A DNA stretch of 45,787 nt, taken from an uncultured Opitutaceae bacterium. Its GTDB lineage: Bacteria > Verrucomicrobiota > Verrucomicrobiia > Opitutales > Opitutaceae. Each line of letters starts with the position of its first letter. Position 1 is the first letter of the stretch. The notes below the pieces were generated by a model. The model was not told the DNA's origin. It worked only from the letters and a program-made list of their open reading frames with translations, and searched no databases. The DNA lies in assembly GCA_903890485.1 (NCBI GenBank), contig CAITBM010000118.1:1-45787 (forward strand). Reading direction: 5' to 3'. The translations under genes and the position numbers were made by a program. Positions 39,244-45,270 of the stretch are shown here, one piece after another.

Positions 39244-40143
39244 GTGCTCTCGACGCTCGCCCTTTTCGGAGTGTCCGCAGCGGGCACGAGCTACGCCCTG
39301 CCGATCGGCGTTAGGATCGCTTCCAGTATCCTGATGGGCTTCCTGATGATGCGGCTCTTCGTGATCTACCACGACCAGCAGCACCACGCTATCCTCTCCC
39401 GCTCGAAGCCGGCCGAGCTCCTGATGAAGCTCTTTGGCATTCTGGCGCTGACCCCGAGCAGCGTCTGGCGGAGCTCCCACAACCACCACCACAAGCACAA
39501 CTCGAAGCTCCGCGGCTCGGACATCGGCTCCTTCCCGATCATGACGAAGGACCAGTTCGTGAAGAGCACCCGGAGCCAGCGCGTGGGCTACTTATTCGTG
39601 CGGCACCCGCTGACGATCCTCTTTGGCTACGTCTTCATGTTCCTGTACGGGATGTGCCTGAAACCCTACCTGAATTACCCGAAGCGCCACTGGGACTGCT
39701 TCCTGGCGCTGGTCGTCCACTTCGCGATCGCGGCCGCGCTCGTCACGACGGGCGGCGTGACGGCGCTCATCCTCTCCCTGGTTTTCCCGTTCTTCATCAC
39801 GTACGCCGTGGCGACGTACTTCTTCTACGCGCAGCACAACTTCCCTGGGGTCTCCTTCAGCGCCCAGGGCGGGTGGACCTACGAGAAGGCGGCCCTGGAA
39901 TCCTCGAGCTGCATGCAGACCGGGCCCGTGATGGGCTGGTTCACGGCCAACATCAGCTACCACCACATCCACCACCTGAACGCCCGGATCCCGTTCTACC
40001 GGCTCCCGGAGGCCATGCGGGCGATCTCGGCCCTGCAGAGCCCGAAGGTGACCTCGCTCAGGCCCTCGGACATCCGCAGGTGCCTGAGCCTCAAGGTATG
40101 GGACGTCGAGAGCCAGCAGATGGTGGGCGTCCAGGGCCTCTAG
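39244..40143 (+). CDS. Membrane fatty acid desaturase
   Basis: A di-iron acyl-lipid desaturase, 299 residues from the first ordinary start (GTG 39244). The three His boxes are HDQQHHA, HNHHHKHN and YHHIHHLN; between boxes 2 and 3 lie two pairs of membrane helices. The pattern resembles omega-6/delta-12 desaturases, which introduce a double bond into membrane lipid chains. The true N-terminus lies further upstream: the frame is open from 39016 and encodes KPFARDDPRRSWWHVL, a normal desaturase beginning, but contains no ATG, GTG or TTG. Possible explanations are a rare start such as CTG at 39160 or 39187, or a lost base: the sequence aATGCACTG at 39181-39189 would give ATG-GCA-CTG with one added G. 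Confidence 0.85.
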   Translation: MLSTLALFGVSAAGTSYALPIGVRIASSILMGFLMMRLFVIYHDQQHHAILSRSKPAELLMKLFGILALTPSSVWRSSHNHHHKHNSKLRGSDIGSFPIMTKDQFVKSTRSQRVGYLFVRHPLTILFGYVFMFLYGMCLKPYLNYPKRHWDCFLALVVHFAIAAALVTTGGVTALILSLVFPFFITYAVATYFFYAQHNFPGVSFSAQGGWTYEKAALESSSCMQTGPVMGWFTANISYHHIHHLNARIPFYRLPEAMRAISALQSPKVTSLRPSDIRRCLSLKVWDVESQQMVGVQGL

Positions 40144-40227
40144 GGTCCTTGACCGTCATGGTTTTTTCCTCTCACCCGGCGCCCAACCCCGCCGGGAAGG
40201 CTTGATCCAACCCCCAACATCCGTCCC

Positions 40228-41253
40228 ATGAGCTATACAGCAGCCTCGGTCGCCAAGGAAGTCGGCGGCGAAGTGATCGGAGATCCCGCGCTCCTCCTCA
40301 CGGGATTTGCCTCGGCCGAGCGGGCGGGCAAGGGGGACCTGATCTTTGCGGAGAAAGACGCCTACTTCGAGGCCGCCGAAGCCAGTGGAGCCTCGGCGAT
40401 CCTCGCCTCGGGATCCCTCACCTCCGCGACGAAGGTCATCATCCGGGTGCAGAATCCCCGGGTGGCGGCGGCCAAGGCCCTCGCCCTCTTTTATCCGGAT
40501 CCGGTCGCCATCCCCGGGATCCATCCGACGGCCTCCATCGATCCCCTGGCGAAGATCGACCCCCTGGCCGAGATCGGCCCCTTCTGCGCCGTCGGCGCCT
40601 GCGTGCGGATCGGCGCCCGCACGGTCCTGATGGGCGGAAACCACGTCGGCCGCGACTCGGTCCTCGGAACCGACGTCCGCCTCTACCCCAACGTGGTCAT
40701 CTACCCCAAGACCCAGATCGGCAACCGTGTGGCGATCCACGCCGGCACGGTCATCGGGTCCGACGGCTACGGCTACGTTTTTGCTGCAGGCAAGCATCTG
40801 AAGATGCCCCAGGTCGGCCACGTCGAGATCCACGACGACGTGGAAATCGGCGCCAACACGGCGATCGACCGCGGAGCCCTGGGGCCGACCGTGATTGGGG
40901 CCGGCACCAAGATCGACAACCAGGTCCACGTGGCCCACAACGTGCACATCGGGCGCCACTGCCTGATCATGGGGCAGGTGGGATTTGCCGGGAGCACCCA
41001 CCTGGGCGACTACGGCGTCATCGCCTCCCAGTCCGGGATCGCCGGGCACTTGAAGCTCGGGACGCAGGTGACCGTGGGCGGAAAATCCGGGGTCATGCGC
41101 GACGTGGCCGACAAGGAGGTCGTCCTCGGAATGCCAGCCGTGCCCGACAAGCAGGCCAAGCGCCAGTGGATCGGGATCCAGAAGCTCCCGGATATGCTCC
41201 TCAGGATCCGGGAGCTGGAGAAGCAGGTGGCGGAGCTAATGCCCAAAGCCTAG
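40228..41253 (+). CDS. lpxD: UDP-3-O-acylglucosamine N-acyltransferase LpxD
   Basis: LpxD, 341 residues, adds the N-linked hydroxyacyl chain in the third step of lipid A synthesis, using acyl-ACP. The N-terminal uridine-binding domain ([19 protein letters not shown]) is followed by a left-handed beta-helix of hexapeptide repeats (about 105-290), with the catalytic His in [14 protein letters not shown], and a C-terminal helical tail. It shows that the organism makes lipopolysaccharide or a similar lipid A. A CG-rich hairpin (CCCGGCG...CGCCGGG) lies in the 84-base gap upstream. Its stop shares the bases CTAG with the stop of the glmS tail on the other strand. Confidence 0.95.
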
Positions 41254-41315
41254 GCGCCTTGGTCCCACTCCACCGTGACCGGCTTGGCCAGGTTGCGGGC
41301 CTTGCCCATGCCGCC
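41250..41315 (-). pseudogene. Orphan glmS 3' end
   Basis: The minus strand encodes [21 protein letters not shown] followed by a stop, nearly the C-terminus of GlmS (CDVDKPRNLAKSVTVE in the intact gene at 42047). Only about 22 codons remain; a stop at 41337-41339 cuts the frame upstream. It is separated from intact glmS by a toxin-antitoxin pair. Confidence 0.75.
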
Positions 41316-41336
41316 TTCAGAGTGCGATCGGAGTGC

Positions 41337-41732
41337 CTACGGCGTAACCGTGTTGATGGATTCTTTGCCCCTGCGGCGGTACACGCTAAAATCCCGTTTA
41401 TCGGTCGTATAGACGGTGGCCTTAGGGAGCATTTCGCTCAAACGCACAACACACGCGTCAGCTAACTGCATTTTGGGGTATTTGGTCATCAACGCCGCGA
41501 GTGCCGGCGCCTCGGCAGGGAGTAGGGGCTCCACATGGAGGGCGCCTCGGCGGATCATCTCCATCAGCCGGGGACCCGACCCTTGCGCAAGATACTCTGT
41601 TTCGGCGAGAACAGCTTCACACGTCACGAGACCTTCGTGAATACGGTCGAATTGTTCCTTTGCCCAGGCGTGGTACTGGTCGGATGAGTCAAGGAATCCG
41701 ACCAGAAGGCCCGTGTCAGCGATCAGCGTCAC
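41337..41732 (-). CDS. PIN-domain toxin (VapC-like)
   Basis: A 131-residue PIN toxin from the GTG at 41732, whose GTGA overlaps the antitoxin stop; the frame is open upstream inside the antitoxin gene. Active-site acids: Asp in LIADTGLLVGFLDSSD, Glu in CEAVLAETEYL, Asp in QLADACVVRLSEM and Asp in YTTDKRDFSVYRR. It should act as an RNase on tRNA or rRNA. The stop codon lies in the duplicated flank of the glmS tail region. The subgroup differs from the other two VapC proteins in this window. Confidence 0.87.
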   Translation of the reverse strand: MTLIADTGLLVGFLDSSDQYHAWAKEQFDRIHEGLVTCEAVLAETEYLAQGSGPRLMEMIRRGALHVEPLLPAEAPALAALMTKYPKMQLADACVVRLSEMLPKATVYTTDKRDFSVYRRRGKESINTVTP

Positions 41733-41959
41733 GGCCGGTTCCGTCCAAATCCGCTCAAGTTCTTGACCGCGACGCCTGTGCTGAGCGTTCCGCACAAATC
41801 GCTTAACTGGCTGCCAAGCGACGGGCCCGGCCCCTCCGACCGAAAGACATAGCGCCTTCCGCCCCGGTCCTTCACGACCAGCTCGTTTCCATTGGCCGCA
41901 GCCTTCTTGAAGCTGGAGAACTTCCTTACGAATTCGCGCGAGGTGACGATCGTTGCCAT
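41729..41959 (-). CDS. Phd/YefM-like antitoxin
   Basis: A 76-residue protein from the ATG at 41959. MATIVTSREFVRKFSSFKKA and the ELVVKDRGGRRYVFR strand pair resemble short Phd/YefM-like antitoxins paired with PIN toxins. Identification depends partly on the overlapping toxin gene. No ribosome binding site precedes the ATG. Confidence 0.78.
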   Translation of the reverse strand: MATIVTSREFVRKFSSFKKAAANGNELVVKDRGGRRYVFRSEGPGPSLGSQLSDLCGTLSTGVAVKNLSGFGRNRP

Positions 41960-41989
41960 GTCACACATCCATGTCTGCCATGGCGTGAA

Positions 41990-41995
41990 TGTCAA
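41990..41995 (-). promoter_or_regulatory. -35 box of the third PIN toxin-antitoxin pair
   Basis: Perfect TTGACA on the minus strand, 36 bases before the antitoxin ATG. The -10 region (ATGGAT) matches poorly. The spacing equals that at the other antitoxin genes in the window. Confidence 0.5.
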
Positions 41996-42046
41996 TCCCG
42001 CTCGGCCTGATGATCCAGGGGAGAAAGCGGGGCCCAAGGCCCTGCC

Positions 42047-43900
42047 TCACTCGACCGTGACCGACTTGGCCAGGTTGCGGGGCTTGTCCACGTCGCAGCC
42101 GCGCTCGACCGCGATGTAGTAGCTCAGGAGCTGGATCGGGATCGTGGCCACGATCGGGAGTACGGCCTCGTGGCAGTCGGGGATCGTGATCACCTCGTCC
42201 GCAAGGCCCGGCGGCAACTCCGCGCCTTCGGTCGTGATCGCGATCACCGGGCCCTTCCTGGCCTTGATCTCCTGCATGCTGGAGACCACCTTGTTGAAGA
42301 TCTCGCCCTTCGGGGCGAAGAACACGCTCGGGCACTTCTCGCTGATGAGGGCGATCGGCCCGTGCTTCATCTCGGCGGCGGGGTAGCCCTCGGAGTGGAT
42401 GTAGGAGATCTCCTTCAACTTGAGCGCCCCCTCGAGCGCGATCGGGAAGAGGGAGAGCCGGCCCAGGAACAGGAAGTCCTGGTAGTGGGCGTAGCGCTGG
42501 GCGATCCCCTTGATGTGCGCGGCCTGCTTCAGGGCCTGCCGCACCAGGTCCGGGACGCCCTTAAGCGCCTTCACGTAGTCGACCCCGTCGTTGAAGCTCA
42601 TGTCCCTGAGGCGCGCCACGTAGAGGGCCACCATGGCGCCGATCAGGAGCTGGGAGGTGAAGGCCTTGGTCGAGGCGACCCCGATCTCGGGGCCCACGTG
42701 CTGGAAGATGCCGCCGTCAGCCTCGCGCGCGATGGAGCTGCCGACCACGTTGTTGATCGCCATGACCCGGTACCCTTTGCGCTTGGCCTCGCGGAGGGCC
42801 GCCAGGGTGTCGATCGTCTCGCCGGACTGGCTCACCACGAAGAAGAGGGTCTGGGGGTCCAGGGGGGCGTTCCGGTAGCGGAACTCCGAGCTGTAGTCGA
42901 CCTCGACCGGGATCCTGGCGAACCGCTCGATCAGGTGCTCGGCGACCAGGCACGCGTGCCAGGCCGTGCCGCAGGCGCAGAACATGAACCGGTCGACCTG
43001 CCGGAGCTCCGCCGGGGTCAGGTTCAACCCGCCGAAGAGGGCCGTGCTCGAGTCCTCCGAGAAGCGCCCGCGCATGGCGTTCTCGAGCGCCAGCGGCTGC
43101 TCGAAGATCTCCTTCTCCATGAAGTGGGAGAAGCCGTCCATGTTCGCGTCCTCGACCTTCCAGTCGATCCGGTCGACGACCGGGGAGACGTCCGCCTGGT
43201 CCAAGGTCGAGATCGAGAACTCCTTGGGGGTGATGAGGACCAGTTCCCCGTCCTTCAGGTAAACCACGTTGCGGGTGCTGGAGACCAGCGCCGAGGCGTC
43301 GCTTGCCAGGAGGTACTCGTTCTCGCCGACCCCGAGGATGAGGGGCGAGGCCTTGCGAGCGGCCACCATCTGGTCGGGGAAGTCGGCGCACAGGGCCGCG
43401 ATCCCGTAGGTGCCCTCGACATGGCGCAGGGCCTTCCGGACGCTTTCCAGGAAGGCGCTCTCGCCCGCCGCCGGCTTCCTCTCCTTGGCGTAGTGGTAGG
43501 CGATCAGGTTGCAGAGGACCTCCGTGTCGGTCTCGGAGGTGAAGGTGTAGCCCTTCGTGAGGAGGAAAGCCTTGATCTGGCTGTAGTTCTCGATGACCCC
43601 GTTGTGGATCAGGGCGAACTTGCCGTCGGAGGAGAGGTGGGGGTGGGCGTTGGCCACGGTGACCCCGCCGTGGGTGGCCCAGCGGGTGTGCCCGAGTCCC
43701 ACGGTCCCCGTGAGGTGCACCTTGGCGACCTCCTTGGCGAGCTGCTCCACGCGGCCCACGGTCTTCACCACCTTGATCTTCCCGCCCTCGATGATCGCCA
43801 GCCCCGCCGAGTCGTACCCGCGGTATTCGAGGCGCTTAAGCCCCTCGAGGATGATGGTGGCCGCCTTGCGGGTGCCTACGTAGCCGACGATGCCACACAT
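42047..43900 (-). CDS. glmS: Glutamine-fructose-6-phosphate aminotransferase
   Basis: GlmS, 617 residues (E. coli 609), makes glucosamine-6-phosphate for peptidoglycan and lipid A. It starts MCGIVGYVG, exposing the catalytic N-terminal Cys after Met removal; GHTRWATHGG and the glutaminase domain run to about residue 230. Two SIS isomerase domains follow: GTAWHACLVAEHLIERFARI, VVSQSGETIDTL and the C-terminal HGPIALISEKCP and RNLAKSVTVE. No glmS ribozyme is visible in the 80-base gap to the divergent glgC gene. Its 3' end is duplicated 782 bases downstream. Confidence 0.96.
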   Translation of the reverse strand: MCGIVGYVGTRKAATIILEGLKRLEYRGYDSAGLAIIEGGKIKVVKTVGRVEQLAKEVAKVHLTGTVGLGHTRWATHGGVTVANAHPHLSSDGKFALIHNGVIENYSQIKAFLLTKGYTFTSETDTEVLCNLIAYHYAKERKPAAGESAFLESVRKALRHVEGTYGIAALCADFPDQMVAARKASPLILGVGENEYLLASDASALVSSTRNVVYLKDGELVLITPKEFSISTLDQADVSPVVDRIDWKVEDANMDGFSHFMEKEIFEQPLALENAMRGRFSEDSSTALFGGLNLTPAELRQVDRFMFCACGTAWHACLVAEHLIERFARIPVEVDYSSEFRYRNAPLDPQTLFFVVSQSGETIDTLAALREAKRKGYRVMAINNVVGSSIAREADGGIFQHVGPEIGVASTKAFTSQLLIGAMVALYVARLRDMSFNDGVDYVKALKGVPDLVRQALKQAAHIKGIAQRYAHYQDFLFLGRLSLFPIALEGALKLKEISYIHSEGYPAAEMKHGPIALISEKCPSVFFAPKGEIFNKVVSSMQEIKARKGPVIAITTEGAELPPGLADEVITIPDCHEAVLPIVATIPIQLLSYYIAVERGCDVDKPRNLAKSVTVE

Positions 43901-43980
43901 GTTATATTTGGGAGGATTAAGGGATTCCGCGGTGATTTTGTCTCGCGAAAGAAGGGATCACGATAGAAAAGTGAAATGTT

Positions 43981-45270
43981 ATGACCACCCAAAAACGCGT
44001 GCTGGCCGTCATCATGGGCGGCGGCCGTGGAACCCGCCTCGCCCCCCTTACCAACGAACGCTGCAAGCCTGCGGTGCCCCTCGCCGGCAAGTACCGGCTG
44101 GTGGACATCCCCATCAGCAACTGCATCAACTCGAACATCAACCGGATCTTCCTGTTGACCCAGTTCAACACGGCCTCCCTCCACCGCCACGTCCAGGGCG
44201 CCTACCAGTTCGACCCCTTCGGCGGCGGCTTCGTCGACATTCTCTCTGCCGAGCAGACCGAGAAGAGCCTGGACTGGTACCAGGGGACGGCCGACGCCGT
44301 CCGCAGGAACCTGATCCACTTCCGCAAGTACCCCCACGACCTGATCCTGATCCTCTCCGGGGACCAGCTCTACCGGATGGACTTCAGCGAGATCATCGAG
44401 CAGCACCTGGCCAACGGCGCCGACGTGACCGTGTGCGCCAAGCCCTTCGAGATCTCCAAGGTCGAGGGCCTGGGGCTCATGCGCGTGGCCGACGACCTCT
44501 CAATTCAGCAGTTTGTCGAGAAGCCGAAGGACCCGGCCGTGATCAACAGCCTGACCGTGAGCCCCACGATCGAGGCCAAGCTCGCGGTCCGCTCGACCGA
44601 GAAGCGGTGCCTGGCCTCCATGGGCATCTACGTCTTCAACCGGAACGTCCTTGCCGACGCCCTGGAGAACTCGATGACCGACTTCGGCCGCGAGGTGATC
44701 CCCGGGATCTTGGGGACGAAGAAGATGTTCGCCCACATCTACGAGGGCTACTGGGAGGACATCGGGACGGTGAAGGCCTTCTTCGAGGCGAACCTGGCCC
44801 TGGCGCAGCCGCTGCCGCCCTTCAACATCTTCGACGCCATGACCCCCGTCTACTCCCACAACGAGTACCTGCCCGCGGCCAAGCTGAACAAGTGCAGGGT
44901 CGACAACATCATCGTGGCCGACGGCTCCATCCTCACGGACTCCGCCATGAAACACAGCCTCTTCGGGATCCGCTCCTTCGTGGGCGAGGGCTCCGACCTG
45001 GAGGACGTGGTCATGATGGGGGCCGACTACTACGAGACCCCCGAGCAATTGGCGGCCAACGCCGCCCGGTCCAAGCCCAACATCGGCGTCGGCCGCAACT
45101 GCCACATCCGGGCCTCGATCATCGACAAGAACGCCCGGATCGGCGACGGCTGCAACCTCTCTCCCGTCGGCAAGCCCGACGGCTCCTATGCGAACGGCGC
45201 CGTGATCATCCGGGACGGGGTCCTGGTGGTCCCCAAGGGGGGCATGATCCCGCCGGGAACGGTGGTTTAA
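43981..45270 (+). CDS. glgC: Glucose-1-phosphate adenylyltransferase
   Basis: ADP-glucose pyrophosphorylase, 429 residues, the committed step of glycogen synthesis (glucose-1-phosphate plus ATP to ADP-glucose). Key stretches: VIMGGGRGTRLAPLTNERCK, PAVPLAGKYRLVDIPISNC, LILSGDQLYRMDF, FVEKPKDP, ASMGIYVFNR and GYWEDIGTVKAFFEANLAL. The C-terminal part is a beta-helix carrying the allosteric site. The wording of the N-terminal half is close to cyanobacterial/plant small subunits rather than E. coli GlgC. Its TAA overlaps the stop of the convergent lgt gene. Confidence 0.95.
   Translation: MTTQKRVLAVIMGGGRGTRLAPLTNERCKPAVPLAGKYRLVDIPISNCINSNINRIFLLTQFNTASLHRHVQGAYQFDPFGGGFVDILSAEQTEKSLDWYQGTADAVRRNLIHFRKYPHDLILILSGDQLYRMDFSEIIEQHLANGADVTVCAKPFEISKVEGLGLMRVADDLSIQQFVEKPKDPAVINSLTVSPTIEAKLAVRSTEKRCLASMGIYVFNRNVLADALENSMTDFGREVIPGILGTKKMFAHIYEGYWEDIGTVKAFFEANLALAQPLPPFNIFDAMTPVYSHNEYLPAAKLNKCRVDNIIVADGSILTDSAMKHSLFGIRSFVGEGSDLEDVVMMGADYYETPEQLAANAARSKPNIGVGRNCHIRASIIDKNARIGDGCNLSPVGKPDGSYANGAVIIRDGVLVVPKGGMIPPGTVV

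Follow-up and report, generated by a model that had tools for sequence, protein, structure and literature searches.

The 3′ end of glmS is the textbook target of the transposon Tn7, which is not known to copy the coding end of the gene. At icd of Escherichia coli, prophage e14 and phage 21 supply a replacement 3′ end of the housekeeping gene and leave a long displaced native end. In the staphylococcal and enterococcal cassette chromosomes (SCCmec and ECC), Ccr large serine recombinases act at the 3′ end of rlmH, according to PMC6222049. The present analysis concerns a stretch of 45,787 nucleotides (nt) from an uncultured Opitutaceae bacterium (assembly GCA_903890485.1, contig CAITBM010000118.1), hereafter the window, in which a PIN-domain toxin gene and a presumed antitoxin gene lie between two copies of the glmS 3′ end. 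Genome comparison shows that, in relatives of this bacterium, islands with a predicted large serine recombinase use the glmS 3′ end as their attachment site (att). The gene pair in the window is probably the remnant of a glmS-tail-directed insertion into an ancestral lpxD–glmS junction.

Double glmS End in the Window

The window corresponds to contig C118 of a 3.1-Mb genome assembled in 144 contigs. The glmS gene, the presumed antitoxin gene, the PIN toxin gene and the second glmS end follow one another on the same strand, and the convergent lpxD comes next:

40228..41253, + strand: lpxD paralogue (Pfam LpxD), convergent with glmS; it delimits the junction on the native side here and in the sister species G004, which has this junction too
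41266..41314, − strand: outer (relic) copy of the glmS 3′ end (direct repeat D2, 43/49; translation)
41337..41732, − strand: PIN-domain (VapC-like) toxin gene (Pfam PIN, 1.5e-6; acidic residues; VapC26 match)
41729..41959, − strand: presumed antitoxin gene, weakly Phd/YefM-like (Pfam PhdYeFM, 0.089, below the cut-off)
42047..43900, − strand: complete glmS, 617 amino acids (aa) (Pfam SIS and GATase; 91% identical to that of G004)
42048..42096, − strand: inner (functional) copy of the glmS 3′ end (direct repeat D2)

The original prediction, made from the sequence of the window, described a glmS-tail repeat in direct orientation 782 bases away, with only a PIN toxin and its antitoxin in between. 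Comparison within the window confirmed this arrangement: positions 41266–41314 and 42048–42096 are identical at 43 of 49 sites with a spacing of 782, and the repeat terminates at the glmS stop; the antitoxin is a presumed one, with a weak Phd/YefM match. A search of the whole genome with the glmS tail detected the second copy (E = 2.9e-11), all further matches being short, with E values of 0.17 or worse. The best other ungapped match of the tail to the 3.6 kb downstream was 27/51. In addition, D2 was the sole direct repeat with at least 41/49 identical positions at a spacing of 300–2000 in 445,787 bases, that is, the window and 400 kb of the same genome.

As was also predicted, the outer copy is still coding-like. 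Its frame, in the same orientation as glmS, translates as EGGMGKARNLAKPVTVEWDQG(A*) and runs to a stop at 41250–41252, which overlaps the lpxD stop (41251–41253). Five of its codons differ from the inner copy non-synonymously (one of them being the stop) and one synonymously. The 81 functional glmS tails compared show purely synonymous differences across 3,240 pairs, a zero non-synonymous count that is largely due to construction, since the tails were picked by a protein motif. Among the tails compared, the inner one of the window itself matches the outer copy best (39/45), followed by five others at 38/45. Thus, whatever its source, the outer copy has the look of a dead glmS end rather than of a functional foreign one. 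The distance from the outer end to the lpxD stop (11 nt, compared with 5 nt in G004) suggests that this copy is, or includes, the displaced resident glmS end.

Islands at the glmS End of Relatives

GlmS was searched for in 57 genomes, including that of the window; 55 gave a match, some of them (the weak ones) seemingly with other amidotransferases only. Among 25 loci read in relatives, 10 have the trpE start no more than about 250 nt away from the glmS end. The glmS–trpE gap of G027 (Verrucomicrobiota) contains a complete island of 11 kb, comprising a small left-end gene and genes for a G2P-like replication protein, a DNA methylase, a CyRepA1-type replication protein and a small tyrosine recombinase, with a 541-aa large serine recombinase encoded at the right end. 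The latter has Resolvase, Recombinase and zinc-ribbon domains, all above the Pfam cut-offs. Serine S11 of its YTRVS motif, which we take to be the conserved catalytic-motif serine, is invariant in four homologues. The right end of the island is GTTACAGGAGACTCAGATTACC-ACGGTGGAATGA, its final 12 nt being a glmS end followed by the native trpE spacer.

Complete islands sharing the left-end, G2P-like, tyrosine recombinase and serine recombinase genes with G027 were found in G097 and G055, and in G302 these genes are split over two contigs; G055 and G302 represent another family of the same order. The small tyrosine recombinase stands beside the serine recombinase in all four of these genomes and at the loci L207 and L209, and L207 also encodes a replication protein related to the CyRepA1-type protein of G027. 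The cargo includes a candidate defence ATPase in G055 (PDC-S06 model) and the methylase in G027 (DruM/MTase_II models). As a side observation, distant relatives of the left-end gene closely follow glmS in three genomes of another family (G450, G447 and G439; loci L189, L190 and L191), with different arms, and these loci possibly represent a second island subfamily at glmS.

In the sister species G004, the lpxD stop is followed by 5 nt, the right att GTTATAGGGAATTTAGTCCGCC-ACGGTGGAGTGA, a small gene and a ParE toxin gene, after which come a partly decayed left-end island gene, a decayed left arm (9/11) and glmS. Only about 12–20 nt of glmS are duplicated in G004, and the right end rebuilds T-V-E-stop. 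Thus, the lpxD–glmS junction that contains the pair in the window harbours, in the sister species, a decayed island with a toxin gene.

Arms, Right Ends and Recombinase Loci

Of 84 distinct glmS ends, 11 carry the left arm TTYCCTATAAC at positions +2 to +12 relative to the stop of the gene, as against 0.08 expected from counts of the same motif at other offsets. Nine of the arms match at 11/11 positions and two at 9/11; three of the 11 ends (L182, L183 and L185) had been fetched because their genomes matched the recombinase or the left-end gene. On the right side, the arm GTTAYAGG followed by the core ACSGTSGA lies beside the native flank in G004, G027, G097, G055 and G302.

A Thr-Val-Glu-stop end (ACnGTnGArTrr) is present within 300 nt after the recombinase gene at 8 of 12 recombinase loci, with a background of 0.012 per 300 nt. 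The 12 loci comprise 7 of 372 genomes with a close relative of the recombinase and five further named contigs; the contig search also returned G027 again (L206) and 23 weaker loci, which were left aside except for a glmS check of three. Together with G004, whose contig lacks a recombinase gene, these eight loci, picked by reading, make up the nine right ends compared. Among the eight are L208 (a Micavibrio metagenome-assembled genome (MAG), placed in Bdellovibrionota by NCBI), L210 (a SAR86 MAG, Gammaproteobacteria) and L211 (a MAG titled Alphaproteobacteria), in each of which glmS lies upstream of the recombinase gene. The contig of L207 lacks glmS, and in G302 the gene is on another contig.

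Related recombinases are also found at other sites. The C-terminal part of one is encoded near the start of contig C8 of the window's own genome (G000:C8:121-982, L188), where a glutamine synthetase gene (Pfam, 1.4e-12) borders with its 3′ end on the right arm GTTATACGG; by eye, G202 (L187) looks similar. Since the recombinases of G202 and C8 are sited elsewhere than glmS, that of C8 at the glutamine synthetase end, the recombinase family in its wider sense is not confined to glmS. In G205 (L186/L202), the first 93 codons of glmS are fused, next to trpE, to the latter half of the gene for the island recombinase, which suggests that a rearrangement broke glmS.

A recombinase-profile search of the phylum gave matches in 6 of 387 genomes, none of them new. 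Viral contigs contained no match to the one att pattern searched and three distant relatives of the recombinase (26–27%). Recombinase matches were obtained in 48 plasmid and 159 phage records, none at 60% or above; among the matches listed, the best was about 25%.

Second Double Tail in G204

The original prediction proposed looking for other cargo between glmS tail copies, and such a case was found in G204, a member of another genus. Here, a complete glmS is followed by an intact left arm and, after about 1 kb of cargo, by a second, frameshifted glmS end of roughly 120 nt. The spacer after this outer end is 75% identical (E = 2e-23) to the spacer after the single glmS end of G198. At the informative sites, where G198 and G203 differ, the outer end agrees with G203 at 15/16 sites before the core and with G198 at 3/3 after it; after the core, the inner end agrees with G203 at 3/3. 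Judging from these sites, the outer tail of G204 is foreign up to the core and native beyond it, and the switch therefore coincides with the recombinase core or with the conserved block around it.

At L207 (CAISOI010000945.1, binned as Chthonomonas), an island right end leads into a spacer that is identical over 137 nt with the one in G204. This is consistent with an island at the G204 site in the same population, and the identity of the spacers indicates that L207 is probably mis-binned.

In a scan of 88 loci (own genome represented at least three times, some others twice, and three loci with fewer than 300 bases downstream), second tails were seen only in the window and G204, and no locus had two tails without cargo. 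A complete second glmS at this place was likewise not seen in the relatives searched. Neither of the two findings that the original prediction had named as refuting it was therefore observed. A search with the GlmS-tail peptide gave matches in 206 of 252 genomes; it missed the window's own outer copy, and this figure therefore cannot exclude decayed second tails.

Toxin–Antitoxin Pair

In the sequence of the window, the GTG start of the PIN gene overlaps the stop of the presumed antitoxin gene (GTGA). Four acidic residues of the PIN protein (D14, E52, D100 and D119) are invariant with seven homologues, and its closest relative of solved structure is VapC26 (4.5e-8). As for the presumed antitoxin, neither NCBIfam nor PHROGs gave a match. 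A PIN homologue in G012 has no island or glmS context among the open reading frames read by eye, and no gene of the glmS-island family lies near the PIN gene located 9 kb after glmS in G019. A role in addiction or defence may account for the retention of the pair in the window.

Origin of the Bracketed Pair

Comparison of the relatives shows that the island provides the last glmS codons and that the native end is left as an outer stub; the large serine recombinase would bring this about by exchanging strands within the Val-Thr-Val-Glu-stop codons of glmS. In the window, incoming DNA with a copy of the glmS end and the gene pair would have undergone recombination with the resident end, after which glmS would have stayed functional through the inner copy and the outer end would have decayed. 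The exchange could have been made by a recombinase or, as the G204 junctions would allow, by one homologous crossover with a circle that bore a glmS tail. The pair is probably left over from an island-type insertion, because relatives carry serine-recombinase islands at the same spot. In addition, the location at the glmS end, the displacement of an outer end and the adjacency of the outer copy to lpxD agree with G004. The suggestion of the original prediction that the insertion was directed by the glmS tail thus holds for the lineage, where the insertions are islands with a large serine recombinase rather than a Tn7 relative and where G004 has a decayed island, with a different toxin gene, at the same junction.

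Several observations weigh against this explanation. Directly after the glmS stop, the window has GGCAGGGCCTTGGG instead of the left arm TTYCCTATAAC, and it is not among the 11 of 84 ends with that arm. No island arm, including the right arm GTTAYAGG with the core ACSGTSGA, occurs at 40000–44000, and five island proteins compared with 41254–42047 gave no match better than E = 0.5. The 49-nt repeat is longer than the roughly 12–20 nt common to the island att sites and is therefore not a plain recombinase product. An empty lpxD–glmS junction with a single tail, for which the original prediction had suggested looking, was not found in the relatives' loci. Before the core, the inner end of G204 is ambiguous, with 8 sites each way. 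Four of the 12 recombinase loci have no glmS right end (G205, L209, G202 and the window's own contig C8), the contig of L209 ending 124 nt after the recombinase match. Duplication of the resident end would account for the outer copy equally well. With arms and island genes lacking, a long repeat and a dead outer copy, a glmS-directed insertion is likely in the window but not proven.

A possible mosaic structure of glmS was considered in 13 segments of 150 columns. G004 was best or tied in nine of them and within 2.2 points in the other four, including the last one (G006, 91.4; G004, 89.2). A mosaic glmS was rejected, since no clear mosaic is seen across the 13 segments. A functional foreign glmS as the source of the outer copy of the window was rejected as well, because of the ratio of five non-synonymous codons (including the stop) to one synonymous. 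Thus, the foreign origin proposed for one of the two copies found no support.

The best-surviving alternative, although an unlikely one, is a short local duplication of the glmS end by replication error, with the pair entering between the copies by unrelated illegitimate recombination. It agrees with the closeness of the outer copy to the window's own inner tail, with its one silent difference, with the interval devoid of an island arm or gene, and with the absence of a clear mosaic. However, there is no other such repeat in 446 kb, and this one, which terminates at the stop codon, lies where the sister species has an island. It is considerably less probable that the outer copy is what remains of a complete second glmS, formed by tandem gene duplication, whose body was deleted: the copy is coding-like and has the same orientation, yet no searched relative has two full glmS genes here (the two of G018 are on different contigs), and the repeat spans just the last 49 nt. 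A Tn7-type transposon that carried the pair to its glmS target, selected through TnsD, is very improbable, since Tn7 inserts just downstream of glmS (PMC2918618) and the interval holds only two recognisable genes, the genome not having been searched for Tns genes.

The surroundings of the junction also vary. In the window, glmS and trpE are separated by a desaturase gene, the lpxD paralogue and the toxin–antitoxin pair; the desaturase–lpxD pair occupies 39244–41253, and its lpxD is also present in G004. This pair occurs elsewhere in G008 and G011, which indicates that the glmS–trpE gap collects insertions. In G008, G009 and G011, none of the lpxD paralogues is next to glmS in the stretches that were read.

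Comparison with Known Systems

On balance, we lean towards the broader interpretation that an unnamed, widespread family of cassette-chromosome-like islands uses the last glmS codons as its att in Verrucomicrobiota and proteobacterial lineages independently of Tn7, and that toxin–antitoxin pairs bracketed by glmS ends, that of the window among them, are its scars. Such a family would combine a large serine recombinase, G2P-like or CyRepA1-like replication genes, and defence and toxin–antitoxin cargo. No report of serine-recombinase islands at glmS was found in the open-licence literature searched, and the word glmS is absent from the main text of a large survey of large serine recombinases (PMC10083194). 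If true, this interpretation would enlarge the set of site-specific recombinases for which an att is predicted, and would illustrate how a toxin–antitoxin pair can be stranded in a core locus once its carrier decays. If the serine recombinase family evolved independently to use the same codons in several phyla, it would provide a natural test of the reasons for which some gene ends turn into integration hot spots.

Among toxin–antitoxin systems, the pair in the window resembles VapBC in its small antitoxin–toxin gene order and its predicted PIN active-site residues, and differs in that its antitoxin is assigned weakly, below the cut-off, to Phd/YefM. The toxin gene of G004 matches ParE of ParDE systems (Pfam, 3.2e-15), whereas its partner gene has no family assignment. 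As for insertion at a gene end, e14 and phage 21 use a tyrosine integrase and another gene.

Tn7 and Tn7-like elements share with the glmS islands the conserved glmS end as a target (PMC2918618 and PMC4046053). In contrast to the islands, Tn7 has a transposase with TnsD and inserts downstream of glmS. The likeness to SCCmec and ECC consists in a large serine recombinase, an att in the 3′ region of a conserved gene and variable cargo (PMC6222049). The best NCBIfam models for the G027 recombinase are CcrB, XisF and CcrA, all scoring far below the cut-off (86 bits against 900 for CcrB). Unlike these cassettes, the islands target glmS rather than rlmH, do not reach the Ccr cut-off, and have a small tyrosine recombinase beside the large serine enzyme and, in G027, a CyRepA1-type replication protein.

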